Positions 2,420-35,097 of a DNA stretch of 35,097 bases are shown here, in pieces (the stretch's first letter is position 1; the number at the start of each line of letters is the position of its first letter). The DNA lies in assembly GCA_030066985.1 (NCBI GenBank), contig JASJAN010000046.1:1-35097 (forward strand), in the 5' to 3' direction. Both the position numbers and the translations under genes were made by a program. The notes under the pieces are model-generated. The model had not been told where the DNA came from. It did no database searches and saw nothing but the letters and a program-made list of their open reading frames with translations. The stretch is from Desulfobacterales bacterium (GTDB taxonomy: Bacteria; Desulfobacterota; Desulfobacteria; Desulfobacterales; JAHEIW01).

Positions 2420-3400
2420 CTATCTTTTGCCTCCATTTGAATTTATCAATTTTGCAATTTCCACAGCGCGGTTGCCCTTGATAATACCCGGGTAGCCGAG
2501 ATATTTGGGAACCTGATCAACGCTGATGGAAATCAAGTCTTCCGGTCCGGCTTTGAGACTAATCACATCTTCCACTTGCAGGTTAATCAGTTCGCGCACG
2601 GTCTGCTGGGTTCGACCCAACTCAGCGATAATGGTCACAAAAGTATCTTTGAGCAAATTTTTGAGCTGGGGACTCCAGGTATTTTTGAGGTCTTGGTCGC
2701 GCAGATATTTGGGCGACAGTTTTTCTTTAATCGGTTCCAGCATCAGGTAAGGAAGCGCCAGATGAAAGTTACCGGAAAACTCCTGCCCTTTGAGGGCAAA
2801 AACGATGATCAGCATCACATCGTTGGGCGGAACCAGCTGCACAAATTCAGGCTTGGTTTCAATTTTTTTCAGGTCGATCTGGACGGGATAAATGGCCGAC
2901 CAAGATTGCTCAAAGCGCACCAAAAGATCGAGGGCAAACTTTTTAATCATGCGCTGTTCGATCTGGGTAAAATCACGTATTTGGGTAGATGGCTTACCAT
3001 CGCCGCCGAACATGCAGTCGATCAGGGAAAAGACAAGATTAGACTCGATGCACAGCAGGGCCTTGCCGATCAGCGGTTTCATGCTAAACATATTGAAACT
3101 CGTCGGGCTTGAAAAGGCGCTAATAAACTCCTGATATTTAACCATTTCAGTCGAGACAAAATCGATGGTGATCGTTCTTTGCATCGCAGACAGCAACGTG
3201 TTTTGCACGGTGCGCAGGAACTTATCATACACTTCTTCCAAGGCTGAAAATTGATCACGTAAGATAACATCGTGGGATGTTAAGTTATACGGAGCGGCCT
3301 CGACCTCTTTTGACGGACCCTGCTCAACATCAACATCCCCTCTATCCATGGCGGAAAGCAGCGCATCAATTTCATCTTGTGTCAGTATTTGATTAGACAT
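2420..3400 (-). CDS. fliM: FliM, flagellar motor switch protein
   Basis: C-ring switch protein that receives phospho-CheY and transmits it to FliG. It is 326 residues, the normal length. The N-terminal ILTQDEIDALLSAM is the conserved CheY-binding segment. A middle domain of about 45-230 includes the characteristic MFGGDGKP loop, and a C-terminal SpoA domain has LGRTQQTVRELINLQVEDVI. It starts 11 nt after fliL. The presence of the CheY-binding tail means the motor can be controlled by chemotaxis, although no che genes are in the window. Confidence 0.97.
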   Translation of the reverse strand: MSNQILTQDEIDALLSAMDRGDVDVEQGPSKEVEAAPYNLTSHDVILRDQFSALEEVYDKFLRTVQNTLLSAMQRTITIDFVSTEMVKYQEFISAFSSPTSFNMFSMKPLIGKALLCIESNLVFSLIDCMFGGDGKPSTQIRDFTQIEQRMIKKFALDLLVRFEQSWSAIYPVQIDLKKIETKPEFVQLVPPNDVMLIIVFALKGQEFSGNFHLALPYLMLEPIKEKLSPKYLRDQDLKNTWSPQLKNLLKDTFVTIIAELGRTQQTVRELINLQVEDVISLKAGPEDLISISVDQVPKYLGYPGIIKGNRAVEIAKLINSNGGKR

Positions 3401-3411
3401 ATTACGACGCT

Positions 3412-3873
3412 TTATTGCACAACAAATTCAGTAAAAAAGATATCGCTGACCACCTCTGCCGGGAACAGGCTGTTGAGTTTACCGATAATCTCATCGCGCA
3501 ACGCGACCTTGCCTTCCACACTGGCGATGTCTTCAAATCGCTTGGTGGGCAGAATCATCAAGATGCGGTCTCGAATCTGAGGCAATCTTTCGTTGAGCTT
3601 ATCGGTATCGGTTGGCGCCGCCAACTCGAGATCCATGGTGATTCTTAAATACCGGTTGCGCTCTTCGTCAGCCAGATTGACAATAAACGTGTCTAGCGAA
3701 AAAAGCGGCCCCAGTTGGGCTGTTTGGCTCTGTTCAGCTTCAGTGTTGGCTTCTCCGTTTCCCGCCGTATTGATCTCAGAAAGCTTATTCCACATCATAA
3801 AAAATCCGGCGGCCAGACCAATGGTGATGACCAGCATGGCAGCGATAACGATAAACATTAGTTTATTTGACAT
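3412..3873 (-). CDS. fliL: FliL, flagellar basal-body stator-associated protein
   Basis: Single-pass membrane protein with a stomatin-like periplasmic domain that surrounds and supports stator units. It is 153 residues: a transmembrane helix at about 7-28, a Ser/Thr/Glu-rich linker, then the FliL domain with LFSLDTFIVNLADEERNRYLRI and the C-terminal EIIGKLNSLFP followed by VSDIFFTEFVVQ. The ATG lies inside the end of the upstream motB gene (11 nt overlap), which ties it to the stator genes. The order motA-motB-fliL-fliM is conserved in many bacteria. Confidence 0.96.
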   Translation of the reverse strand: MSNKLMFIVIAAMLVITIGLAAGFFMMWNKLSEINTAGNGEANTEAEQSQTAQLGPLFSLDTFIVNLADEERNRYLRITMDLELAAPTDTDKLNERLPQIRDRILMILPTKRFEDIASVEGKVALRDEIIGKLNSLFPAEVVSDIFFTEFVVQ

Positions 3874-4615
3874 TTTCCTGTTTACCCTCCGTTAATAATA
3901 AAATTTCCACCCGTCTGTTTTTCAATCGGTTGGCGGGCGTATCATTGTCGACCAGCGGCCTGGATTCGCCATATCCGACCGCTGAAAGCCGACGGGGATC
4001 GATGTTGCCGTTCTCAATAAAATACTTGACCACATTCACCGCACGGGCCACCGACAGTTCCCAGTTTGAAGGATAACGCGGCGTCTGGATGGGGATGTTG
4101 TCAGTATGCCCTTCCACCCGAACCGCATCAGAACCGAGATGAATAACCTTGGCGACTTGATTTAACAGCCCATTGCCCTGTCGGTTGATGTCTGCTTTAC
4201 CAAAATCAAATAGAATCTGGTCTTCAAAAGAAAGCCGAATCCCCTGGTGTATCGGGGTGATTTGAATGCCAAAATCGGCTTGCAAAGATTTAACCAGCGC
4301 ATCGTTCAACAGCCCGGTTAGACGCTTTTTGTCTTTGTCAGTCTTGACGCCCTCGGGCTGGGTGAGAATGTGGGACATATCCTCAACCGGCTGAGCCGCT
4401 CGGACACTGATACCGACTTTTTGGCCTTCTTCGAGCAGGCCCAGCCCGCTTTGCAGCGCAAACTGAAAATCCTGCATTTTTCTGGCATCAACGCTGCTCA
4501 TGGTGAACAGCAACACAAAAAAAACCATCAGCAGCGTCACCAAATCATTGAAAGTGGTCAGCCAGCCGGCACTGTTACCGCTTTGTTCTCCGGAATTTTT
4601 TGGCCGTCTTCTCAT
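3863..4615 (-). CDS. motB: MotB, stator protein with intact ion-binding Asp
   Basis: Peptidoglycan-anchored B subunit of the stator that drives rotation. It is 250 residues. The N-terminal membrane segment reads WLTTFNDLVTLLMVFFVLLF (residues 18-37) and keeps the essential Asp (Asp24, codon 4544-4546, GAT), the ion-binding residue corresponding to Asp32 of E. coli MotB. A linker is followed by a C-terminal OmpA-like peptidoglycan-binding domain with the motif VEGHTDNIPI and YGESRPLVDNDTPANRLKNR. The start overlaps the stop of a second MotB-type gene (ATGA). It is therefore the catalytically competent B subunit of a two-motB stator cluster. Confidence 0.95.
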   Translation of the reverse strand: MRRRPKNSGEQSGNSAGWLTTFNDLVTLLMVFFVLLFTMSSVDARKMQDFQFALQSGLGLLEEGQKVGISVRAAQPVEDMSHILTQPEGVKTDKDKKRLTGLLNDALVKSLQADFGIQITPIHQGIRLSFEDQILFDFGKADINRQGNGLLNQVAKVIHLGSDAVRVEGHTDNIPIQTPRYPSNWELSVARAVNVVKYFIENGNIDPRRLSAVGYGESRPLVDNDTPANRLKNRRVEILLLTEGKQENVK

Positions 4616-5355
4616 GAGCGCTCCTCGTCCGCTGAATTCTGAATCTGCGGTCTAATGAAGATCACTTCAACCCGGCGATTTTTAGTGCGGTTTTCAGCAG
4701 TGTCGTTGGCCACCAGGGGCTGAAACTCGCCAAACCCTTCAGCTGACAGACGCTGCGCATCGATTTGGTGATGTTCAATAAAATACCGTAATACATTCAC
4801 CGCCCGGCCGGTGGACAATTCCCAGTTGGACGGGAACAAAAACGTGTGGATGGGCACATTGTCGGTATGTCCCTCAATGCGGATTAAATATTGGGTTTGG
4901 GCAATAATCGCCCCGATTTTTTCAAGCAACGGCAATGCCTGCGGTGAAATGGTCGCCACGCCCGATTCAAAAAGGGTAAGTTCAGACAGACGCATCACCA
5001 GGCCTTCTTTGGAAAACAGCACCTCGAGCTCATCTTTGAGGTCAAACCGATCCGAAAGCCTCTCAAGATGTTCATGAAGCTTGGCCATAGTCGAGCGGGT
5101 TTCAACCATACCGGCTGATCGGGGCACGGCGGCCGATCCGGATTCAAATTTGATCCCTCCGGGGAAAAAGCTGACAGCATTGCTAAAGGAACGTACAAAT
5201 CGCATCACCTTGGCCTCTTCCATGGTGGAAAATGAGCACAACATGATAAAAAAGCACAGTAAAATGAGAATAAATCCGGAGTAGACGATTTCCCATCCTG
5301 GCCCTGAATCGCCATCACCCTTTTTGGATGCATCATGTCGATGCCTTTTGCTCAT
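4612..5355 (-). CDS. MotB-family protein lacking the ion-binding Asp (Gly27)
   Basis: MotB/OmpA-family protein of 247 residues, 3 nt after motA and overlapping the next motB by 4 nt. The membrane segment WEIVYSGFILILLCFFIMLC (residues 21-40) aligns without gaps to that of the downstream MotB (Trp, then FF, then SxS positions coincide). At the position of the essential Asp it has Gly27 (codon 5275-5277, GGA on the minus strand). The OmpA domain is intact (RIEGHTDNVPIHT, FPSNWELSTGRAVNVLRYFI, NRTKNRRVEV), so peptidoglycan anchoring should be kept. Family knowledge says loss of this Asp abolishes ion flow in a homodimer. I infer a non-conducting partner or a structural subunit. The reading frame shows no decay, so it is not a pseudogene. 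Confidence 0.92.
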   Translation of the reverse strand: MSKRHRHDASKKGDGDSGPGWEIVYSGFILILLCFFIMLCSFSTMEEAKVMRFVRSFSNAVSFFPGGIKFESGSAAVPRSAGMVETRSTMAKLHEHLERLSDRFDLKDELEVLFSKEGLVMRLSELTLFESGVATISPQALPLLEKIGAIIAQTQYLIRIEGHTDNVPIHTFLFPSNWELSTGRAVNVLRYFIEHHQIDAQRLSAEGFGEFQPLVANDTAENRTKNRRVEVIFIRPQIQNSADEERS

Positions 5356-5358
5356 ATT

Positions 5359-6138
5359 TTATGCTTTCGCCGGTTCGGCACTGGCGCTGATACGCGCTTT
5401 GGGTGCAATAAAGGCCTTTAATTTCTGCTCAACCACACGATGGTTGTCACCGGACTGGATCGAAATAACCCCTTCCAAAATCATCTGCTTGACCAGAACT
5501 TCTTGCTTGCTGCGCGTTTTCAGTTTGTTGGATACCGGCAAAAACAGTAAGTTGGCCAGCATGGTGCCGTAAAAAGTGGTCAGCAAAGCCACCGCCATGG
5601 GTGCGCCGATCTGACTGGGATCCTCCATCTGCATCAGCATTTGCACCAACCCGATAATGGTACCCAACATCCCGACAGCTGGCGCAAAGGTTCCCATAGT
5701 TGTGAATATTTCAGAGCCCAATCGGTGACGCTCCTCCAGGTACTGAATCTCAATGGACATCACTTCCTCAATGGACGAGGACTCCATGCCGTCAATCGCC
5801 ATCTGGATGCCGCGGGCCAAAAAAGGGTCCTTGATATCCTTGAGTTGGGATTCAAACGACAGGATGCCTTCTTGGCGCGCTTTTTTGGCAAAACCCGACA
5901 TTAACGGGATAAATTTGCTGGCAACCTGTGAACGGTGCAAGAACACATTTTTAGCCACTTTAATCACCCCCAGGACCTCTGAGAGGGGATATGCCAGCAG
6001 GGTGGCCCCCATGGTACCGCCCAGAACGATCATTACTGAGGGGTAATTCACAAACCAGGTGCCATCACCCCCCATCAAGATCGAAATGATGACCAAACCA
6101 AACGCAACAACAATACCGATAAGAGTTGTGATATCCAC
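5359..6138 (-). CDS. motA: MotA, flagellar stator protein A
   Basis: Four-helix membrane subunit forming the pentameric ring of the stator, which pushes FliG. It is 259 residues. Helices are visible at about 1-22, 33-50, 145-170 and 178-200. The last two carry FAPAVGMLGTIIGLVQMLM with the conserved Pro, and AVALLTTFYGTMLANLLFLP. The cytoplasmic loop between helices 2 and 3 is of normal length. The start is GTG at 6138, with a strong GGAGGAG 7 nt upstream. It opens the motA-to-fliR operon, downstream of the sigma-54 promoter at 6257-6272. Whether the coupling ion is H+ or Na+ cannot be decided from sequence alone. Confidence 0.97.
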   Translation of the reverse strand: MDITTLIGIVVAFGLVIISILMGGDGTWFVNYPSVMIVLGGTMGATLLAYPLSEVLGVIKVAKNVFLHRSQVASKFIPLMSGFAKKARQEGILSFESQLKDIKDPFLARGIQMAIDGMESSSIEEVMSIEIQYLEERHRLGSEIFTTMGTFAPAVGMLGTIIGLVQMLMQMEDPSQIGAPMAVALLTTFYGTMLANLLFLPVSNKLKTRSKQEVLVKQMILEGVISIQSGDNHRVVEQKLKAFIAPKARISASAEPAKA

Positions 6139-6919: not shown

Positions 6920-8164
6920 TTAGCGTTTAATATTGATCAGCTCGGCAAGAATTTCGTCACTGGCGGTAATCACCCGGGAGTTGGCCTGAAAGGCGCGCTG
7001 GGTGGTAATCATCTTGACAAATTCCTGGGCAAGATCGACATTTGACATCTCAATGGCGTTGGGACTGATACTGCCCAGCCGGGCGGTCTGGGGAGGTCCG
7101 GTCATGGGCTGGCCCGAATCCCGTGACTCCGTATACAGGTTTTTGCCCATTTTGCTCAAACCATAATAATTGGGAAAATCCGCTAGCACCACCTGGTACA
7201 GCGGTGTCAACTGGCCATTGGAATAGCTGCCAGTTACCACCCCGGCTTCATCAACCGATACGCCCCGCAAAACCCCTGAAGGAAAACCGTCTTGGGTCTG
7301 GAAGGTTGTCATGAAGGGTGCTGCGAACTGGGTCAAGTCTCCGTGCGTCACACCGGCAGCATCAACAAGGTCCCAGGTCAGCGTCAGATCGCTGGCACCG
7401 CTGGTCAGACCGCTAATGGTAATCTGCGGATCAGTGTTGTTGAGCAAACCGCCAGTGGCGCCATCAAATGTATAATTGGTAACATCGATACTGATACCAC
7501 CCCCACCCCCGAAGGTCCCGGCCGGCACGGTCGGGGTGACATCCCAATCATTGGCGGAGTTTTTGTCAAAGGTCAGGGTAATCGGTATGCCATTACCCAA
7601 CGATTCATAAACAATGACAGTGGTAGAATAGGTATCTCCGGCGGCCGCCCCGGCGTCCAAGTTAACATCAAGAGTAAATTGTTGGGTTGCCCGTGGCGGG
7701 GAAGTGCTTTGCCCAGGCACATTGATGTCGGTAATGTTACCGATGGTAAACGTTCCGTCTGTGGCGACCGAGGTCACCTCATAGCCCTGCACATAGAGGC
7801 CGTCGGGATTGATTAGATACCCATCACGATCGAAGGTAAAATCACCGGCCCGAGTATAAAATTCAGTACCGGCGTTATCCTGCAGCAGGAAAAATCCGGC
7901 GCCGCTGATGGCCATATCGGTGGGGCTGGCGGTATTTTCAACAGACCCCTGGCTCCAAATGGGCGTAGTGCCCCAAAACTCCACCCCGCGGCCAATTTCA
8001 TCGGCACCGGTGCCCGCCAATGATTGACTTAAGATGTTGGCAAAAGAAGTCCGGTTGGATTTAAAAGCCGTGGTGTTGACATTGGCAATATTGTCGCCAA
8101 TAACGGTTAACGCTTTTGAATTGACATTGAGTCCGGAAATACCGGCAAATAGTGAACCAATCAT
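6920..8164 (-). CDS. flgE: FlgE, flagellar hook protein
   Basis: Structural subunit of the hook, exported by the flagellar type III system. It is 414 residues, within the family range though at the shorter end for this lineage. The N-terminal rod/hook signature GLNVNSKALTVIGDNIANVN is followed by TTAFKSNRTSFANIL. The C-terminal helix has NVDLAQEFVKMITTQRAFQA and ends SDEILAELINIKR. The middle is Gly/Thr-rich beta structure, as expected for surface domains. A GGAGGG Shine-Dalgarno precedes the ATG. It follows flgD by 2 nt, the normal scaffold-then-hook order. Confidence 0.96.
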   Translation of the reverse strand: MIGSLFAGISGLNVNSKALTVIGDNIANVNTTAFKSNRTSFANILSQSLAGTGADEIGRGVEFWGTTPIWSQGSVENTASPTDMAISGAGFFLLQDNAGTEFYTRAGDFTFDRDGYLINPDGLYVQGYEVTSVATDGTFTIGNITDINVPGQSTSPPRATQQFTLDVNLDAGAAAGDTYSTTVIVYESLGNGIPITLTFDKNSANDWDVTPTVPAGTFGGGGGISIDVTNYTFDGATGGLLNNTDPQITISGLTSGASDLTLTWDLVDAAGVTHGDLTQFAAPFMTTFQTQDGFPSGVLRGVSVDEAGVVTGSYSNGQLTPLYQVVLADFPNYYGLSKMGKNLYTESRDSGQPMTGPPQTARLGSISPNAIEMSNVDLAQEFVKMITTQRAFQANSRVITASDEILAELINIKR

Positions 8165-24614: not shown

Positions 24615-25472
24615 ATGGCACTAAGTACAATTAATTTAACTGCTGGTATGCGGGCCAATTTGTTCAGCCTACAGCAAACGTCCAAGGATTTTGAAGTCAC
24701 CCAGAAACGCCTGGCCACCGGTCTGCGCGTCAACACCGCCCTGGATGATCCGATCAACTTTTTTGCCGCCCAGGAACATAAATTACGGGCCACCGACCTT
24801 GCCGGACGTAAAGACGGCATGTCGGAAGCCATCCAGACCATCAAGGCCGCCAACGTGGGTGTTGAAGGTATCAACAACCTGATTGCCCAGGCCAAATCTC
24901 TGGCTCAGTCAGCTCTGTCGGCTACGGCCGCAGATGCCACGATCTTTGCCAGCCAGTATGCAACGGTTATGACGCAGATCAACCGGATGGCTGCGGATGC
25001 CAATTACAAGGGCGTCAACCTGTTGCAATCGGGTGAAATGACGGTAGAATTTGCACCGACCGCCGGCGATTCCACTTTAAAACTGACCGGTTTTGGTGAC
25101 TCCTCAACCAACTTCAACATTAGTGGCTTGAGCTCAGAAGTCACCGCCGGTGGCACCAACTGGGTTACCAGTGGCAACACCACGGTCAATGCTGCCAACA
25201 TTCAGAGCTCGATCAACAACCTTGAAACCGCTATGGGTGCGTTGAGAACTGAATCCAAGAAGCTGTCCAACAACCTGTCGATCATCACCGCGCGTGAGGA
25301 GTTCAGTGCCCAGATGATCAACACCCTAAACGACGGTGCGGCGAAACTCACCGAGGCCGACATGAATGAGGAAGGCGCCAACATGCTGATGCTGCAAACG
25401 CGTCAGGCGTTGGGTACGACCTCATTGAGTCTGGCCGGTCAAGCCGCTCAGGGAGTTCTGAGATTATTCTAA
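24615..25472 (+). CDS. fliC: Flagellin, alphaproteobacterial-like
   Basis: Filament subunit of 285 residues, a short flagellin with reduced D2/D3 domains. The N-terminal D0/D1 region has MRANLFSLQQTSKDFEVTQK, RLATGLRVNTALDDPINFFA and DGMSEAIQTIKAANVGVEGI. The C-terminal D1/D0 region has NNLSIITAREEFSAQMINTL, then EGANMLMLQTRQALGTTSLS and ends AAQGVLRLF. These motifs (RLATGxxVNxALDxPxNFF and IQTIKAA) are like those of alphaproteobacterial flagellins rather than the SSGxRINSAxDDAAG form usual elsewhere. The middle (about 130-200) is Ser/Thr/Gly-rich and could be O-glycosylated. A strong AGGAAAGGA lies 9 nt upstream. The gene symbol is generic. Confidence 0.95.
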   Translation: MALSTINLTAGMRANLFSLQQTSKDFEVTQKRLATGLRVNTALDDPINFFAAQEHKLRATDLAGRKDGMSEAIQTIKAANVGVEGINNLIAQAKSLAQSALSATAADATIFASQYATVMTQINRMAADANYKGVNLLQSGEMTVEFAPTAGDSTLKLTGFGDSSTNFNISGLSSEVTAGGTNWVTSGNTTVNAANIQSSINNLETAMGALRTESKKLSNNLSIITAREEFSAQMINTLNDGAAKLTEADMNEEGANMLMLQTRQALGTTSLSLAGQAAQGVLRLF

Positions 25473-26528: not shown

Positions 26529-29006
26529 CTAGTCCGCAACAATTTCAATTTGCCGTGGAGCCCTTCCTTCCCTGAATATAGACCACATTTTTTGGTAAGC
26601 TGTCTCCAGATGACCGATAAACTCAGGCGTATCAAACAAGGGGGTTGTCAATCGGTTCGCTGACAATTGCATTTTGATGCTTTGACGTTCTGTATGCTGG
26701 GAGCCCAATCGAACGGCCAGTTGTTCGTAAGCGTCTAAATCGTCCACGACCAAATCAGATAGTCCGACGGCACCCAGCAAACTGGCTGAAACTCGCGTTG
26801 CAAATTGATCCCCCATCAGGGTAATTACCGGTACACCAGCCCACAATGAATCGCTGGTGGTTGTGTGTCCGTTGACAATTCGGGTGTCCAGTGTCAGATC
26901 GGACAACTGCAGCCGCGCCAGATGCTCGGCTTTGGGCAATTTTTCGCCAAATACCAGCCGACATGGATCAACGCCTCTGATGCAGGCTTGATGTTGGAGA
27001 TTATGTGTCGTTGTTTCACCGCCTTTAAACAGCCACAAGACACTGTCTGGAACTTGTTTCAATATGCGCATCCAGCAATCAAACATCAGCGGATCTATTT
27101 TATACGGCAAATTAAATGAACTGAACACACACCCTGTCTCCGGCAGCCCCAATTCTTTTTTTGTCCAGATGCGGGCAGCAATTTTTTGATGGTGATCATT
27201 GACCTGATAGCTGGAAGGCATAAAAACAAGGCATTCGCTATAAAAAGATGACTGTTCAATCGGCGTGACGATTCTGTCGCTGATCAGATAATCAATGAAA
27301 TCGGCACCGGTCGTGCCCGGATACCCCAAATAGTGAACTTGAACCGGCGCCGGGCGATGCGCCAGTATGCCCAGCCGGGCCCCTTTTGTATGCCCTTTTA
27401 GGTCGACTAAAATATCGACGCCGTCGTCGTAAATCCGACTAGCCGCATCAATATGAGACCACATGTGGATGTCCACAAATTGATCACTTTGTTCACATAT
27501 TTGTTTTCGATAAACACTGTGATCGTTCGGACCATATGAGTATGTACAAATGTTAAATTTGTCTCGGTCATGAAGACCGAAAAGACTGCGCATCAAATGG
27601 GCGGTGGCATGATCATGAAAATCACCGGAAAGATAGCCCACCGTCAGTTTGCCGGTTTTTTGTCGTCGGGATTCAAATGAAAACCCTAATGTTGAATTTG
27701 GAAGGGGCTGTGCGCATTTTCGGCACCACAGTCGGGCATTGTCCAGCTGCTGCAGCGGATCTGATTGCCGTGCCATCTGAAGAAAGGGTGGCTCAGCCAG
27801 CATGAGGTGATCACGAGTGTCTTGGCGCCTTAACCGGTCGAATCTTTGCAAATAGATCTGCAGCTGTTGCCAATCACAGGCATACTGCAACTCATACATC
27901 AGATAACTGTATGCCTCAGTGTAGGCCTGGTTAATCTCAATCGCTTTTTTAAAGCAATCAATGGCCGCGTCTCGCTTTCCCATTTCAGCCAGTGTTAGCC
28001 CCATATAATTGTGAGCTTCTGCAAATTCCGGGTGTATGCGGGTGGCTTCGTGAAAATGATCGACGGCTTCGGCCGGGCGATCTAATTCAGCCAGGCATAT
28101 CCCTAAATTTAAATGCGCTTCGGCATACTGGGGGTGAGCCTGCAGCGATTTTTGATAGCAGGCAATTGCCTCAGGATAATAGCCTTGATCTTTAAGCGCA
28201 TTGCCCAAATTATTTTGAGCGGCATAAAGACCGGGTTTCAGCTTAACGGCCATTTGGTAATGCGAAAATGCCTGCTCATATAGGCCCTGGCGCTTAACAA
28301 GATTGCCTAGATTATTATAGGCCTCGGCCCATTGAGGATGGATACGCAAACATTGGTTTAGACAATCAATGGCATCATCATAGCACCCTTGCTTTTCCAA
28401 CACGTTGGCTAAGTTATAGTGGGCCTCTAAAAAATTTGGATTGATGCGCAATGCCTGCCGATAGCAGGTTATGGCGTCATTGAATCGCTGCTGCTCTTTG
28501 AGGGTGTTGCCCAGATTGTAATGGGCTTCGACACTGTCAGGCTTTAAAGTGATCGCCTGGCGATAGGCGGTTTCCGCACGCTCAAACTCGGCTAATTGAT
28601 GCAAGGCGATACCCAAGTTAATATGGATTTCAACCAAATCCGGCTTGAACTGCAGCGCTTTATAATAGCTGTCAATCGCCCTCTGGTAGTGGCCGCTGTC
28701 GCGCAAAGCATTGCCCAGGTTGGCGTGATAAATAGGCTGATGAGGAATAACGTCGATAGCACGGCTAATTAAATCAATAGCGGTTGTATTATCTTGCCGT
28801 TGATGGCAGATCACACCAAGCAGATGCAACGCGTCCGCATGTCCGGGTTTGGCATGCAGAATCTTGCGGTAATCGTTTTCGGCCTGCTCTAATTCACCAT
28901 GCTGATGAAGTTTTAAACCGCGTTGCAGTATGGCGGACAGATCTATGGCGTCGATCTCCGTTGAAGACATGAGCTTGGAATTCAATTCAAAGGCTTTCTC
29001 AGGCAT
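26529..29006 (-). CDS. TPR protein with O-GlcNAc transferase (SPINDLY-type) domain
   Basis: Cytoplasmic glycosyltransferase of about 825 residues. About ten to twelve TPR units of 34 residues fill the N-terminal half, e.g. EAHYNLGNTLKEQQRFNDAI. The C-terminal GT41/OGT domain (about 450-800) has VGYLSGDFHDHATAHLM with the catalytic-type His, VDLKGHT, APVQVHYLGYPGTTGADFID, SFNLPYKIDPLMFDCWMRIL with the UDP-binding Lys, and NGHTTTSDSLWAGVPVITLM. It should transfer a sugar to Ser/Thr of proteins. Adjacency to flagellin (convergent, sharing a terminator) suggests flagellin as substrate. The frame extends to a TTG at 29057 overlapping the upstream gene; the ATG at 29006 is preferred, but neither has a well-spaced ribosome site. 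Confidence 0.9.
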   Translation of the reverse strand: MPEKAFELNSKLMSSTEIDAIDLSAILQRGLKLHQHGELEQAENDYRKILHAKPGHADALHLLGVICHQRQDNTTAIDLISRAIDVIPHQPIYHANLGNALRDSGHYQRAIDSYYKALQFKPDLVEIHINLGIALHQLAEFERAETAYRQAITLKPDSVEAHYNLGNTLKEQQRFNDAITCYRQALRINPNFLEAHYNLANVLEKQGCYDDAIDCLNQCLRIHPQWAEAYNNLGNLVKRQGLYEQAFSHYQMAVKLKPGLYAAQNNLGNALKDQGYYPEAIACYQKSLQAHPQYAEAHLNLGICLAELDRPAEAVDHFHEATRIHPEFAEAHNYMGLTLAEMGKRDAAIDCFKKAIEINQAYTEAYSYLMYELQYACDWQQLQIYLQRFDRLRRQDTRDHLMLAEPPFLQMARQSDPLQQLDNARLWCRKCAQPLPNSTLGFSFESRRQKTGKLTVGYLSGDFHDHATAHLMRSLFGLHDRDKFNICTYSYGPNDHSVYRKQICEQSDQFVDIHMWSHIDAASRIYDDGVDILVDLKGHTKGARLGILAHRPAPVQVHYLGYPGTTGADFIDYLISDRIVTPIEQSSFYSECLVFMPSSYQVNDHHQKIAARIWTKKELGLPETGCVFSSFNLPYKIDPLMFDCWMRILKQVPDSVLWLFKGGETTTHNLQHQACIRGVDPCRLVFGEKLPKAEHLARLQLSDLTLDTRIVNGHTTTSDSLWAGVPVITLMGDQFATRVSASLLGAVGLSDLVVDDLDAYEQLAVRLGSQHTERQSIKMQLSANRLTTPLFDTPEFIGHLETAYQKMWSIFREGRAPRQIEIVAD

Positions 29007-29037
29007 TCCTTTAGTATAAGCGTGCCTAATAATATGA

Positions 29038-32000
29038 TTAATGCGATAAGTTATCAAACGTATCCGGCTGATGGTGCGCCAAATCGGATGATGGGATCTC
29101 AGACATGTTGCGGTTCTTATCGTTTAGTTTAATGCACTCGGTGAACAGCTCTATAATCTCCTTATTAACAATATCGCATTCAATTGCCGCCCCGAGCACG
29201 AGCAATGCATAGTGTATCTGGTGGGCTGCGATCAGGCTCTGGCCGAGTTCCAGAGAAGGCATTTCCAGAAATTTGCCCATGGACGTATTTTTCTGCTGTT
29301 TTAGACCCTCAAGACCTTTTTGTTTTTGATCCGCGCAACAATATGCGGCACTTAAAATAAACCGTGCCGGTGGGTAATCTGGAAACCCGCGCAATAGATT
29401 CTCAAGCGTTTTGACAGCGGCTGGTGCATTTCCGCAGTGCAATTCAGCCACTGCGTAGTTATATTGGGCCTCTTTCAGCTCTGGATCATACTTGAGTGCT
29501 TTTTGGGCCACATCCATAGCAGCTTCAAAATCTTCGAGTCGACTGTAAACCGTGCCCATATTCACATAAGCGATAGCGGCCAGCTCGGGAAACGGATTTA
29601 CCGTCAGCAGTCGTTGCCACAAATCCAGCGCTTCCTGGTTACGCTCCAAAATGGTGGCTTGAATCGCCAGCTCCCGCAATGCGTTGACGTCTTCACCCGT
29701 CTCAGAGAGCTTTTTTTGACCGATTTCAAAATATATTTCGCCTTTGCGATCCAGTTTGGCTTTATCCAGCCGCCCGTAATGGTGTATCGGAATACCACAA
29801 TCTTTGATTTTAATGTTTTTTCGATGTAATACCGGATCGACCAGTTCATGTACCGCCCCTTCAAAGCTGATTTGATCTTTGCCATAAAACAGCCGCACCT
29901 TTTCACTGGGCAACCAGCCAATGGCAGCTTCTTCTGCCGGGTATTGCCCGTCATTGGGTACCCAGCCGACAAAGTTGGCCAGTGGGTTATAATTACGGGT
30001 GGTGATGTTATAAGCAACCGGCGAATTGGGTTTTTGGGCAACAATTTCATTGAAGCGGTCATAATCCAGCGAGGAAATCACTTCATCTCCGTCAAGGATT
30101 AAAATCCAATCACCCGAGGCTTGGGAAATCGAAAAATTTCGTGCGGCGGCAAAATCATTTCTCCATTGGTAATCATAAACTTTAGCGCCAAAGGCAATCG
30201 CTAAGTCTCTCGACTGGTCCGTAGAGCCCGTATCCACCACAATCATCTCGTCGACAAGGGGTTTAACACTGTGAAGACATCTGGCCAAATACTTTTCTTC
30301 ATCCTTGACAATCATACATACCGAAACTGGAACCTTTTGCGTGGATTTCTGGATGGTCATGGGCCCCAGTTTTTTTCTGATTTTCAGCGCGGCTGCTAAA
30401 ATGCCGTCAGCCATACCAAATTTGATAATGGCACTCTCAATCTCAGACATGGCCATTTCATATTTACCCTGCTGGATCAGAAAATCGATCAGCATATATT
30501 TGATTTTCTGGTTGTGCGGATAAAGGGCAGCTGCTTCGCGCACAATTGTTTCTGCTCTCTCATAGCTTCCGATTTCGGCAACCAGGCTATGATAATTTGC
30601 TGCAATGTCAAGGTCTGTGGGTGCCAGTCGAAAACCTTTCTCAAAAGACGCCAGCGCGTCCTTCTGCCGTTCGGCTTCCAATTGAAGCGTCCCTAAATTC
30701 GAATAGGGTTCACCGTAACCGGGATCTGCCTTAACCGCTGCCTGGAAGTGCTTTTCAGCTAGATCGCGATCACCGTTGTGATACGCCAGAATACCCCTTA
30801 GGTTTAACCCGGATGCATGTTTGGGATTTAGGGCCAGCAATTGATCGAGGCAGATCTGCGCCGCATTATAATTTGACAGTCCGACTTCAGCATATCCCAG
30901 TAATTCAAGCTTTTGCAGATCAGCATGTCCGTTGCTTGGGGGTATTTCATTTAAGGCATCCTTGGCATCTTGAAAACGTTTGGCTGCGATAAGAACTTTT
31001 GCCAAAGCGACGTATAAGCGTTTTTCTTCCGGCTGGGTACCGATAGCAGCCAGTAAGGCATCAACCGCTTGATTAACCTGACCTTTCTGACTGATTTCTT
31101 TTGCTCCCGTCAACAGCTCGATCGTCTTAAAGGCATTGACATCAGGGTTTTGGATGTCATTCCATTTTTCTCTGTATTTTTTGAGATCTTCGCTAGCGGC
31201 CGAAAGTTTCGCACCGCTATTCTTATTGGCTTTATGTCGATCGTAATGGTAGACATACGTATCGGCGGCCACCCAATTCTGATAACCGGCTGCTGCCACA
31301 CGCTTGCAAAAATCTTCAACAGCCAGCTCGGCCGAAATAAACTTTTCGTCAAAAGATCCGATTTTGACGATTAGCCCATGCCGAAAACCCAGACAGACAT
31401 CCGATAGTTTAGACGTCCTTACCCTTCTGTGCTGGTTTTGATCAAAAAACGCGGCGGCGTCAGTTTCAAAATCGGTCCGATCAAATTCTTCGGCTTGCAA
31501 AACCTGCTGGATCCCTGTCGTTCTATTAACCATTGGACCAATGATACCGGTATTCGGTTCAGATTTGATACCCGTCAAAAATGCGTCAAGCCAGGCGTCC
31601 GGCAACACCACGTCATTGTGCATCAGAACAATAAGACTACCAATGGCCTTTGTGAGGGCTCGATTGATGCATGCGGCCCACCCAGCTTTTGGGCTGCAAT
31701 CGATAAGATGCACATGGTCATTGTTCTCCACAAGTTTTTGCGCCCATTTGCGCATGCCTTTCGTGGTCTCACCATCGATAAGCAGCATTTCATAGGGTTT
31801 GGTCGTATGCAATTGAATGCTTTTCACACACTCTTTAATGCGGTTTTGGATACCATCTAGGCTAACCACAATCGAAACAGTGGTTTCGTATTCTGCGTCT
31901 AATTTTTCTGATGCTTCCATAATAGGACGAAAGGTGCCGTTTTCAGCGTCTGGATAGCTGTTCTCCTTTAACGTATTTGATTGAATCGATATTTTGTTGT

Positions 32001-35000
32001 TTTCCCGATCAAGTATAGCGCTTAAATTTCGGCTGGCATCCGCATGGTCCGGCTCCAGCGCTAAAACGCGTCGGTAAAATTCTTTGGCATCATCAAATTT
32101 TTCCAGCGCCACACAAATGTGGCCGGTAATGCACAGCGTCTCGATATCTTCAGGATGCTTTGTCAGTATGTTTACATATATTTGCAGGGCATCTTCCACC
32201 CTGCCCAGTTCAACAAACAAAAAATCAGCCAGGTTCTTTTTAAAATTGATGTTATCCGGCATCAGTTGAACGGCACGTTCATAGTGAATTTGTGCTTTTT
32301 CTTTGTCGCCGGTATGATAAAAAAGAACACCCAGATCATTGTGGGCGACAGCAAAATCCGGAAACTTTTGCAGTAATTCCTCTAAGGCGTTGATAGCTTT
32401 TTTCAGATCGCCATTGTTCAGTAGCGGTTGAATTTCATGGTACATTGCTTCAGCAGTCTTATTTTCAAGTGTATTCGTCTTCGTTTGGTTTAATTTTTCA
32501 AAATGACCCCCGTCTGCCGAACTTTTTCGCACTCCTGGAAATGTTTTTTCCAATGCTATAATTTGTTGGCGAGCCTCTGTATTTACAGGTTCAATTTGCA
32601 ATACCTGGTTGAAAAAATCGCGGGCGTCATCGAATTTCTCCAATGCTTTGCAAATCTGCGCGGTGGCCATCAGGGTCTCTACATCCTGCGGATCTGTCTT
32701 TAATATGCTGACATATACTTGCAAAGCATCTTCGATCCAGCCCATCTCGATGCAGTAAAAATCTGCCAGGTTCTTTTTAAAATTGATGTTATCCGGCATC
32801 AGTTGAACGGCACGTTCATAGTGAAATTGTGCTTTTTCTTTGCCGCCGGTATGATAAAAAAGAACACCCAGATCATTGTGGGCGACAGCAAAATCCGGAA
32901 ACTTTTGCAGTAATTCCTCTAAGGCGTTGATAGTCTTTTGCGGATCACCGTTGTTCAGAAGCGGCTTGATTTCCTGGTACATTTCTTCAGCGGTTTGCTT
33001 ATCAGGAAGATTCATCTGCAGGCGCTTTATTTTCTCAAGATTCTCGCGGGCTGTATCATTCGTGGGCTCCAGCTCCAATACCCGTTCATAAAACACGCGG
33101 GCATCATCAAATTGATGCTGCGAAACACAGATATGGCCTGTAATCAACAGGGTTTCGACATCTTGAGGATTCGCCTTCAGAATGCTGATATATAATCGTA
33201 GGGCATTTTCGATGTCACCGTGCTCGACATAGTAAAAATCCGCTAGATTCTTTTGGAAAATCATATTATCGGGTTCAAGCTGCAGGGCTTTTTCGTAAGA
33301 CTGATGCGCTTTTTGTTTGTGGCCGGTGTGATAGTACAAAACACCCAGGTCATTGTGGGCCAAGGCAAAATCCGGAAAAGATGATGCCAGGCTCTTCAAG
33401 GCATCAATAACTTCTTCAGGCTTTTTATGCTTCATCGTCTCCTGGATATTTTGGTATATGACCTGTGGAGATGTCATCCCTTGATGCGTTTGGTCATTCG
33501 ACGAGCCAACAAACCGTCGTACCGGCTGATCTTTTAACGCTTTTAAACGATCTATAATTTTATCTGCTGACATTTTCCAGTCCACCTTTGACTTTATAAG
33601 ATTTGCTGCAATTTGTCCTTTTCGTTTGGCCTCATTAGGGTGTTCGTAAATAAACCTGAGCCGCTCATTTAACTGCGGTTTATCCGGCTCGAGCAACCAG
33701 GCCGGCGCACTGAGCTCATAGCAATTTAATTGAATGGGTCTTTTGGTGCTGTCAATGAAATAAACGCTTTCTTCAGAGCAAAAATCGTCACAGGCTCCTC
33801 CCCGGGTGACGATCACCGGCAGCCCGCAAGCCATGGCCTCCGCCACCGGCAATCCAAATCCTTCGCCCCGGTAGGGATGCACCAAACAATCGCAGGCGGT
33901 ATACAAACGCGCCATTTCTTCACCTTTGAATGTGTCGGTCAAATACAGTATTTCAGGTGCTTTCGGATCCTTTTTAATATTTTTGATGAGGTGCGCGGCA
34001 TTCTGGCCCTTGTAAAACGATTCGCCGCCCATGTCTTTGATGACCAGGCAGACATCATCTTCGCAGGAGAAGGTCTCCGTATAAGCGCTTAATAAAACAT
34101 CGATGCCTTTGCGCATGATGGTACCGCCGACAAATAAAAATTTGAAAGGCTTCTTCGTATCGAGTGGATACGCAGTCACTTTTGGATTGAACTGGCCGTA
34201 ATGGATTCCATTGGGAATCACAAAGACTTTGTCGGGTGATACACCGCTGTTCACATAAACATTGCGCACATGATGACTGGGCACCCACAGCTCATCAACG
34301 AGGGTCTCCATGGGCTCGACCCAATCTTGGGGCAAAGCGCCGAATTCCCAAGGCTGGATCATGATCCAGTGACCTTCCGGTGGTGGTGTAAAACAAGGCG
34401 GCCATTGGTGACGCACATGAAAATCGGCCGCACCAGGCAACGCTTGTTGCAGTCGCTCTTGGATAAGGCCGAATCGGTCCGGATCTTCCTCCGGCCCGTA
34501 TTCATGCGGTTCATAAGGGATAAGGGAAAGTTCAATATCCTGACGGCCGGCAAGTTCGATGCACAACTCCCGGTTTACCAGCGCCAGGCTGTGGTTGACA
34601 AATTGAGACCCCTCCCACCGGATGCGATAGGTCTCATCGGCGATTTCGGCCGGTTTCCCGCTGGGATTGAGTTGGGTTCCAATTTCTTGTAGACGCTTTG
34701 CGGCAACGGTGGCGATTTTTTCCCAGGTCCATCGACGCTCAATTTCCTCCCGCGCGTGTTGACCTAATTTTTGTGCTTCATCTGTATTGCCCGCTACCTT
34801 TTGCAGTAATTCACTCAGATGTTCTACCGACGGCTCTGCCCATTTTTGTCCACGATAAAAAGCGATCTCAGCACGCTCATCGATTTCAACCAATCCCTTG
34901 GTATCAACCAGAAGACTATTATCAGCGTTCATGAAATCAAGGCTAGCGCCCCAGCAAGTGGATATCACCGGAAGGCCACAGGCCATGGCCTCCATTTGAG

Positions 35001-35097
35001 TTCGTCCCCATCCTTCACCCCGACAAGGCAGGACATAAGCATCAGCTGCTGCGTATAGGCGGGGCATATCCTGCTCATGAAGCTGATCGGTTAAAAC
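29038..35097 (-). CDS. Giant multi-glycosyltransferase/TPR protein (5' end beyond window)
   Basis: The open frame runs off the right edge (2019 codons visible, stop 29038-29040). Residue numbers count from the ATG at 35067, which is internal. Order: C-terminal half of a GT4 domain (1-130, GEGWGRTQMEAMACGLPVIS); a full GT4 domain (about 150-525, FKFLFVGGTIMRKGIDVLL and YRGEGFGLPVAEAMACGLPV); three long TPR modules (about 530-1015); a GT2 domain (about 1060-1305, MHNDVVLPDAWLDAF); TPRs (about 1320-1560); a second GT2 domain (about 1575-1790, VCMIVKDEEKYLARCLHSVK and LILDGDEVI as DXD); and C-terminal TPRs. At least four transferase domains in one chain suggest a processive or multi-step glycan assembler. 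The ten codons before the ATG continue GT4-like sequence, so the true start lies outside. Confidence 0.92.
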   Translation of the reverse strand, partial: VLTDQLHEQDMPRLYAAADAYVLPCRGEGWGRTQMEAMACGLPVISTCWGASLDFMNADNSLLVDTKGLVEIDERAEIAFYRGQKWAEPSVEHLSELLQKVAGNTDEAQKLGQHAREEIERRWTWEKIATVAAKRLQEIGTQLNPSGKPAEIADETYRIRWEGSQFVNHSLALVNRELCIELAGRQDIELSLIPYEPHEYGPEEDPDRFGLIQERLQQALPGAADFHVRHQWPPCFTPPPEGHWIMIQPWEFGALPQDWVEPMETLVDELWVPSHHVRNVYVNSGVSPDKVFVIPNGIHYGQFNPKVTAYPLDTKKPFKFLFVGGTIMRKGIDVLLSAYTETFSCEDDVCLVIKDMGGESFYKGQNAAHLIKNIKKDPKAPEILYLTDTFKGEEMARLYTACDCLVHPYRGEGFGLPVAEAMACGLPVIVTRGGACDDFCSEESVYFIDSTKRPIQLNCYELSAPAWLLEPDKPQLNERLRFIYEHPNEAKRKGQIAANLIKSKVDWKMSADKIIDRLKALKDQPVRRFVGSSNDQTHQGMTSPQVIYQNIQETMKHKKPEEVIDALKSLASSFPDFALAHNDLGVLYYHTGHKQKAHQSYEKALQLEPDNMIFQKNLADFYYVEHGDIENALRLYISILKANPQDVETLLITGHICVSQHQFDDARVFYERVLELEPTNDTARENLEKIKRLQMNLPDKQTAEEMYQEIKPLLNNGDPQKTINALEELLQKFPDFAVAHNDLGVLFYHTGGKEKAQFHYERAVQLMPDNINFKKNLADFYCIEMGWIEDALQVYVSILKTDPQDVETLMATAQICKALEKFDDARDFFNQVLQIEPVNTEARQQIIALEKTFPGVRKSSADGGHFEKLNQTKTNTLENKTAEAMYHEIQPLLNNGDLKKAINALEELLQKFPDFAVAHNDLGVLFYHTGDKEKAQIHYERAVQLMPDNINFKKNLADFLFVELGRVEDALQIYVNILTKHPEDIETLCITGHICVALEKFDDAKEFYRRVLALEPDHADASRNLSAILDRENNKISIQSNTLKENSYPDAENGTFRPIMEASEKLDAEYETTVSIVVSLDGIQNRIKECVKSIQLHTTKPYEMLLIDGETTKGMRKWAQKLVENNDHVHLIDCSPKAGWAACINRALTKAIGSLIVLMHNDVVLPDAWLDAFLTGIKSEPNTGIIGPMVNRTTGIQQVLQAEEFDRTDFETDAAAFFDQNQHRRVRTSKLSDVCLGFRHGLIVKIGSFDEKFISAELAVEDFCKRVAAAGYQNWVAADTYVYHYDRHKANKNSGAKLSAASEDLKKYREKWNDIQNPDVNAFKTIELLTGAKEISQKGQVNQAVDALLAAIGTQPEEKRLYVALAKVLIAAKRFQDAKDALNEIPPSNGHADLQKLELLGYAEVGLSNYNAAQICLDQLLALNPKHASGLNLRGILAYHNGDRDLAEKHFQAAVKADPGYGEPYSNLGTLQLEAERQKDALASFEKGFRLAPTDLDIAANYHSLVAEIGSYERAETIVREAAALYPHNQKIKYMLIDFLIQQGKYEMAMSEIESAIIKFGMADGILAAALKIRKKLGPMTIQKSTQKVPVSVCMIVKDEEKYLARCLHSVKPLVDEMIVVDTGSTDQSRDLAIAFGAKVYDYQWRNDFAAARNFSISQASGDWILILDGDEVISSLDYDRFNEIVAQKPNSPVAYNITTRNYNPLANFVGWVPNDGQYPAEEAAIGWLPSEKVRLFYGKDQISFEGAVHELVDPVLHRKNIKIKDCGIPIHHYGRLDKAKLDRKGEIYFEIGQKKLSETGEDVNALRELAIQATILERNQEALDLWQRLLTVNPFPELAAIAYVNMGTVYSRLEDFEAAMDVAQKALKYDPELKEAQYNYAVAELHCGNAPAAVKTLENLLRGFPDYPPARFILSAAYCCADQKQKGLEGLKQQKNTSMGKFLEMPSLELGQSLIAAHQIHYALLVLGAAIECDIVNKEIIELFTECIKLNDKNRNMSEIPSSDLAHHQPDTFDNLSH
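32228..32396 (-). repeat. Internal duplication, copy A (169 nt)
   Basis: This segment and 32765-32933 differ at only two positions over 169 nt (T/A near 32289 and T/C near 32306). They lie 537 nt apart, a multiple of three, and encode the same part of successive TPR modules in the giant glycosyltransferase. The flanking parts of the modules are much more diverged. Confidence 0.9.
32765..32933 (-). repeat. Internal duplication, copy B (169 nt)
   Basis: Near-identical partner of 32228-32396 (167 of 169 positions by eye). It encodes ALEELLQKFPDFAVAHNDLG and the following TPR up to FKKNLADF. A third, clearly older copy of the module lies around 33260-33420 with many differences. The identity patch therefore points to recent duplication or gene conversion within the array. 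Confidence 0.9.

Follow-up and report, generated by a model that had tools for sequence, protein, structure and literature searches.

A MotB paralogue lacking the ion-binding aspartate, encoded next to an ordinary MotB behind a single motA in Desulfobacterales and other members of their phylum

Introduction

The closest described relatives of the locus analyzed here are the MotA-MotB and PomA-PomB stators, in which five A subunits are combined with two B subunits. In a published model of the 5:2 stator every 72 degrees of rotation consist of two half-strokes, with one ion carried per MotB and the aspartates alternating (PMC9175137). For PomAB, the two aspartates were described in different states, and the ion-binding Asp was called universally conserved (PMC10374538). 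Both articles agree with the statement in the first-pass annotation of the locus that known stators use both Asp residues.

Two different B subunits next to one A subunit have also been described. Aquifex aeolicus possesses a motA-motB1-motB2 operon, and chimeras of each of the two MotBs functioned with MotA in E. coli when its counterpart was missing (PMC4525482). Pairing is thus not obligatory for two MotBs encoded with a single MotA. In Aquifex, the two proteins are 97% identical in their membrane and N-terminal regions, where only Gly20/Ser20 differs, and share 23% in their periplasmic regions (PMC4525482). The near-identical membrane regions suggest that both proteins keep the Asp. The gliding machinery AglR-AglQ-AglS of Myxococcus likewise comprises one MotA-like and two different MotB-like proteins (PMC9389320, PMC9120999).

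With the 5:2 stators the present locus shares the MotA ring protein, the MotB helix and OmpA-type anchor, the position in a flagellar cluster and the PomA-type threonines. Its two MotBs do not show the combination of near-identical helices and a periplasmic difference described for Aquifex. In AglRQS, which is not flagellar, both B subunits are described with a conserved aspartate (PMC9389320), whereas the present genes belong to a cluster with flgE, flgD, fliL, fliM, fliN and fliP, and one of the two copies is Asp-less. No Asp-less MotB partner was found in the open literature searched, which took in few subscription papers, and a word search of a survey published in 2025 on how MotAB evolved (PMC12505986) returned no mention of two MotBs or of the ion-site aspartate. 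The two-MotB operon as such is already known from Aquifex; the Asp-less partner is apparently new.

Gene organization of the locus

The window, i.e. the whole analyzed stretch of 35,097 nucleotides from a Desulfobacterales bacterium, harbors a minus-strand flagellar cluster. Based on open reading frames and Pfam matches its order is flgE-type/motA/motB/motB/fliL/fliM/fliN, with fliP further down. The gene for the flgE-type hook protein (6920..8164, minus strand) lies upstream of motA (5359..6138, minus strand), which has a GTG start and encodes a MotA of the two-MotB group whose residues T160, T187 and T188 align with T158, T185 and T186 of PomA. It is followed by the first motB (4612..5355, minus strand), encoding an intact, Asp-less protein of 247 aa (MotB1), and by the second motB (3863..4615, minus strand), encoding an intact protein of 250 aa (MotB2) with Asp24 present. 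The stop of the first and the start of the second motB overlap in the four bases ATGA (4612..4615, minus strand), and translational coupling of the two genes is possible; the same overlap was seen in 14 of 39 loci, window counted. The end of the second motB is overlapped by fliL (3412..3873, minus strand), which encodes a stator-associated protein, and fliM (2420..3400, minus strand) is the next gene of the cluster.

In the whole genome four MotB_plug matches were found, namely the tandem pair and two others, each of which adjoins its own motA. The tandem pair therefore shares one MotA, and a separate MotA for MotB1 elsewhere in the genome was rejected as an explanation. On contig C34 of the same genome, a third motA-motB set (L004) was observed, with the MotB helix LWSYVDLITLLLVLFILF and a score just below the MotB_plug cut-off. 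Two very large proteins are encoded at 26529-35067 of the window (minus strand), near a flagellin gene (24615-25472, plus strand) whose C-terminal Pfam match is below the cut-off. One of them (842 aa) contains TPR and glycosyltransferase 41 domains according to Pfam and the other (2009 aa) is similar by eye; possibly they act in flagellin glycosylation.

Comparison of the two MotB proteins

The first-pass annotation had described two genes of full MotB architecture that align without gaps across the membrane helix, with Asp24 in the downstream copy and Gly27 in the upstream copy. All of this was confirmed. The codons are GAT for Asp24 (4544..4546, minus strand; FNDLVTLLMVFF) and GGA for Gly27 (5275..5277, minus strand; VYSGFILILLCFF). 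Both proteins exceed the Pfam cut-offs for MotB_plug (44.5 bits in the first and 59.8 in the second copy, cut-off 24) and OmpA (64.5 and 72.3 bits, cut-off 27.2). They share 36% identity (86/241), and G27 is placed in the Asp column of a gap-free membrane helix by pairwise and profile alignment alike. The second copy has the membrane helix, the Asp and the anchor domain, and is classed as an ordinary MotB. The first copy possesses the MotB_plug membrane helix and the OmpA-type anchor and lacks the ion-binding Asp; since this is the defining ion site of a MotB, it is to be named a MotB paralogue.

In the predicted structure of MotB1 (mean pLDDT 76), the membrane helix spans residues 20-42, a further helix (47-62, low pLDDT of about 60-64) occupies the would-be plug site, and the putative peptidoglycan-binding domain covers about residues 89-236, with blocks mostly at pLDDT 84-97. 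Foldseek matched the predicted anchor domain to the periplasmic domains of MotS (E 1e-17) and PomB (E 1e-14).

Relatives within the order

A search for the first MotB in 58 genomes, own genome included, recovered orthologues in eight others with 52-82% identity, of which three belong to the same genus, two to the same family and three to different families of the order. Each of them adjoins a second MotB. When 84,980 named genomes were scanned with the N-terminal region of the first MotB, 35 loci were obtained, a set that leans to the Gly-type because two peptide patterns were derived from Gly-type sequences, one of them containing the Gly. By title, all 35 belong to Deltaproteobacteria, Desulfobacterales or members of these; most are metagenome assemblies, and a named strain, Desulfatitalea alkaliphila M08but (L067), is among them. 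Both MotBs are visible in 32 of the 35 loci; of the exceptions, two (L062, L066) are truncated by the contig end, and in L069 the first motB contains an N stretch and is not followed by a second one. Matches to FliL and FliM follow downstream in 31 loci; L042, L062 and L066 end earlier, and L069 has no fliL or fliM match in the rest of the locus.

When a profile built from ten first copies was run against 389 genomes of the order, 41 places scored at least 229 bits; the next best hit, at 217 bits, was a second copy with Asp. The number 41 is a minimum, because the order also has S-type first copies (e.g. L185 and L186) that are absent from the set. The residue in the Asp column was read in 40 of these places (all but G311), and none has an Asp. 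Pooling of the named scan and the order-wide search resulted in 41 distinct first copies, of which 40 were aligned and L065, whose start is missing, was omitted. Among these 40, which were found with Gly-type probes and include the window, 37 have G at residue 27, two have S (L042, L096) and one has A (L062). The second copies carry N23-D24 in 39 of 39 cases. The split motA of L038 was set aside, as were L062, L065, L066 and L069.

Occurrence in the phylum

Judging by the named relatives, the phylum is presumably Thermodesulfobacteriota. A phylum-wide count of Asp-less copies by profile score was dropped because distant ones overlap ordinary MotBs at around 220 bits. The count was started from MotA instead and is thus unselected with respect to the Asp residue. 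A profile of the MotA of such trios matched 144 of 395 genomes of the phylum at E<=1e-75, and all 91 MotA places of at least 305 bits among the matches listed were read, one per genome and window included; the 305-bit line was set after the scores had been seen (306.7 vs 303.3). A non-Asp copy followed by an Asp copy was present in 60 of the 91 places. Two places have two Asp copies in tandem (L172, L204), two have a non-Asp copy followed by the contig end, ten have a single Asp MotB behind MotA, and 17 have no adjacent MotB. The first copies of the 62 complete pairs carry S in 37 cases, A in 14, G in five, T in two, N in one and D in two, and one copy was unaligned (L196, S by eye and included in the 60). 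In all 62 pairs, D is found in the second copy. As a control, the 19 MotA places read below 305 bits, among the matches listed, all have a single Asp MotB.

The 17 places without an adjacent MotB at first looked like counter-examples. In the 14 of them whose frames were viewed, fliL and fliM follow motA by eye, and each of the 16 genomes searched (all but L229) harbors two motB genes in tandem at another site, both of them with the Asp. In these 16 genomes (L260-L285) motA stands alone before fliL; in 11 of them the tandem pair is located on the contig of motA, at a distance of some 16-17 kb. This is a rearranged two-MotB system, which differs from the trio of the same phylum in that its first copy has the Asp.

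The first-pass annotation had left room for the Asp-less MotB being a local oddity, which was not the case, as it is widespread among relatives. Restriction to the genus or order of the window is rejected because the trios recur among genomes of the phylum, and a sequencing artefact because intact copies occur in numerous independent genomes and because of the dN/dS values given below. A conserved gene order that includes the Asp-less copy, named in that annotation as the check to be made, was strongly borne out, the order being the same in 60 of 60 places.

The MotAs with a single Asp MotB (L198, L211, L213, L214, L217, L219, L220, L224, L226, L227) carry Gln instead of Glu at position 96 of the window MotA (10/10, vs 6/60 MotAs of trios). 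By numbering rather than alignment, this position corresponds to the rotor-contact residue E98 of E. coli and to E96 of Aquifex (PMC4525482). At position 157, which is Met in PomA (M155), Leu was observed in 18 of 60 trio MotAs; PomA M155 has been discussed as a direction-setting residue (PMC10374538).

Residues lost and kept

The ion path was followed through the Asp column and the T/S residues at positions -3 and +3 from it, of which the former corresponds to PomB T21, part of the Na+ site (PMC10374538). Counted on the sequences of the tree described below, all three residues are missing in 51 of 58 Asp-less first copies (48/55 without the rows gapped at -3). They are complete in 49 of the 57 partners of Asp-less copies, in 13 of 14 first copies that keep the Asp, in 14 of 14 partners of these and in 17 of 18 single MotBs. 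Replacements in the Asp column are confined to G, A, S, T and N.

The aromatic core of the Asp-less copies is retained, with F at +9 in 58 of 58, and F28, L30, I31, L33, F35 and F36 of the first-copy membrane helix are invariant in 29 sequences. In the anchor domain, the D and R columns, which we take to be residues of the peptidoglycan-binding motif, are each kept in 53 of the 58 Asp-less first copies. With these residues and the predicted fold retained, MotB1 keeps a putative peptidoglycan anchor.

W45 of E. coli MotB is a MotB-MotB contact (register from PMC10659934). The residue at this position is mostly small or polar in Asp-less copies (mean volume 121, 72% polar) and bulky in their partners (mean volume 174, 0% polar). 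Mean volumes of 163-170 were obtained for Asp/Asp pairs and for single MotBs. The commonest combinations of first copy and partner among 57 are C-F (13), N-L (8), T-I (6) and Y-I (5). Such a contrast between small and bulky residues would be expected if the helices of MotB1 and MotB2 pack together and thus indirectly suggests pairing, although another contact could explain it.

The dN/dS values are 0.10-0.20 for MotB1 in four pairwise comparisons, 0.16-0.17 for MotB2 in two comparisons, two more being saturated, and 0.03-0.05 for MotA in three comparisons; some of the synonymous distances are large. Judged by these ratios MotB1 is under purifying selection. Together with the invariant D of the second copies this means that decay or random scatter, the outcome that would have spoken against a role of the first copy, was not seen. 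The dN of MotB1 is several-fold higher than that of MotA, which counts against the heteromeric stator proposed below, though it is similar to that of MotB2. The three PomA-type threonines of MotA are T in 60 of 60 trio MotAs and also in the 46 other MotAs tabulated; Na+ is therefore the likely ion, yet this is not specific to the trios.

History of the aspartate loss

A tree was calculated from 161 selected MotB rows after removal of the Asp columns, comprising 58 Asp-less first copies with 57 partners, 14 Asp first copies with 14 partners and 18 single MotBs. The distinction between first and second copies requires one change on this tree, single MotBs uncounted. All first copies fall into one branch, which is starred (98) and includes the single MotBs L004 and L253 as well. 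The second copies do not form one resolved clade, as 7 of 71 are located outside the main group, in open forks. The 12 detached Asp/Asp pairs on the tree divide in the same way, their first copies being placed in the first-copy branch and their second copies with the other second copies, which indicates that the presence of two MotBs is an old condition.

The Asp-less state requires five changes on the 161-row tree, three of them forced by starred branches, and four on a subset of 63 rows. A single clade of Asp-less first copies was rejected (p-AU 7e-5) with these 63 hand-picked rows of the 161. The Asp was thus lost repeatedly, or lost and regained, and in these sets the sequences support such a change in the first copy only. 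Nested among Asp-less first copies, the Asp is kept in L135/L172 (G761) and L204 (G492), and Asn is found in L134/L206 (G614). Placement of the long rows L180, L225 and L004 is uncertain.

A proposed heteromeric stator

Starting from the gene trio, the residue loss in its first copy, the selection on that copy, its intact anchor domain, the distribution and the tree, we infer a pairing of MotB1 with MotB2, the number and type of ions and a need of the trio for motility. It is fairly probable, judging from the sequences, that a MotA5 ring surrounds a MotB1:MotB2 heterodimer with one ion site. In such a stator five MotA would enclose an axle of one MotB1 and one MotB2, and the ion-binding Asp would be carried by MotB2 alone. 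MotB1 would contribute the second membrane helix, the second peptidoglycan anchor and perhaps a plug without having an ion site, so that it would keep the axle straight and share the anchoring to the wall. As every MotA would encounter a single ion site, one ion would pass in each 72-degree step and five instead of ten in a full turn of MotA, with Na+ as the presumed ion. The chances are about even that, beyond this, many members of the phylum possess an obligately asymmetric MotA5:MotB1:MotB2 stator with a single ion site and one ion per 72 degrees, derived from an older two-MotB axle by repeated loss of the Asp. A single ion site is no rule of two-MotB systems, since Asp is present in both copies of 2 of 62 adjacent and 16 of 16 detached pairs.

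The first-pass annotation had offered three alternatives, a heteromeric stator with one ion channel per unit, a dominant regulator of torque and a structural ring subunit. The first of these fits best, while its heteromeric composition and one-channel step keep the conditional form given above. Against the heterodimer count the Aquifex chimeras, which functioned with one MotB each, the related MotA group that manages with a single Asp MotB (10/91), and the second copies not being resolved as one clade. With two further MotAB sets in the same genome, a role of the trio stator in swimming is presumptive. The single-MotB group also agrees with a reading in which MotB2 homodimers are the working stator and MotB1 enters some complexes as a poison, torque-tuner or assembly helper. 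As T160, T187 and T188 of MotA are unchanged, MotB2 homodimers could still conduct. However, in the places read the Asp-less copy always occurs with an Asp copy except at two contig ends, the order of the two never varies, and within one lineage the Asp-less state had more than one origin or underwent reversal. A fixed partner fits this better, and a modulating role of MotB1 is considered unlikely.

MotY and FlgT in Vibrio are envelope-anchored ring proteins of the basal body. MotB1 might be a protein of this kind, located outside MotA, and its intact OmpA-type anchor domain, the missing ion-path residues and the neighboring fliL would agree with it. But the membrane helix of MotB1 is still MotB-like and strongly conserved, with six invariant residues, and the complete ion path persists in 13 of the 72 first copies on the tree. 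The lineage is therefore that of a MotB rather than of a new scaffold, which makes this explanation improbable. The retained aromatic core, the helix following it and the anchor domain would also allow MotA5 to combine with two MotB1, forming a unit silent for ions that would attach to the rotor as placeholder, anchor or brake. This is likewise improbable, because it leaves the small-versus-bulky contrast at the W45 position unexplained and a homodimer with small polar residues there would be under-packed. That MotB1 is a relic, a duplicated motB on its way to losing function, is suggested by the absence of a supposedly essential residue but is highly improbable given the intact frames, the low dN/dS, the narrow set of replacements and the retained anchor residues.

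If the heteromeric MotA5:MotB1:MotB2 stator is true, it would be a natural and widespread stator with one Asp and would show that alternation of two sites is dispensable. It would lend itself readily to comparisons of ions per turn, torque and step size, and would clearly illustrate how a homodimer became an obligate heterodimer with specialized halves.
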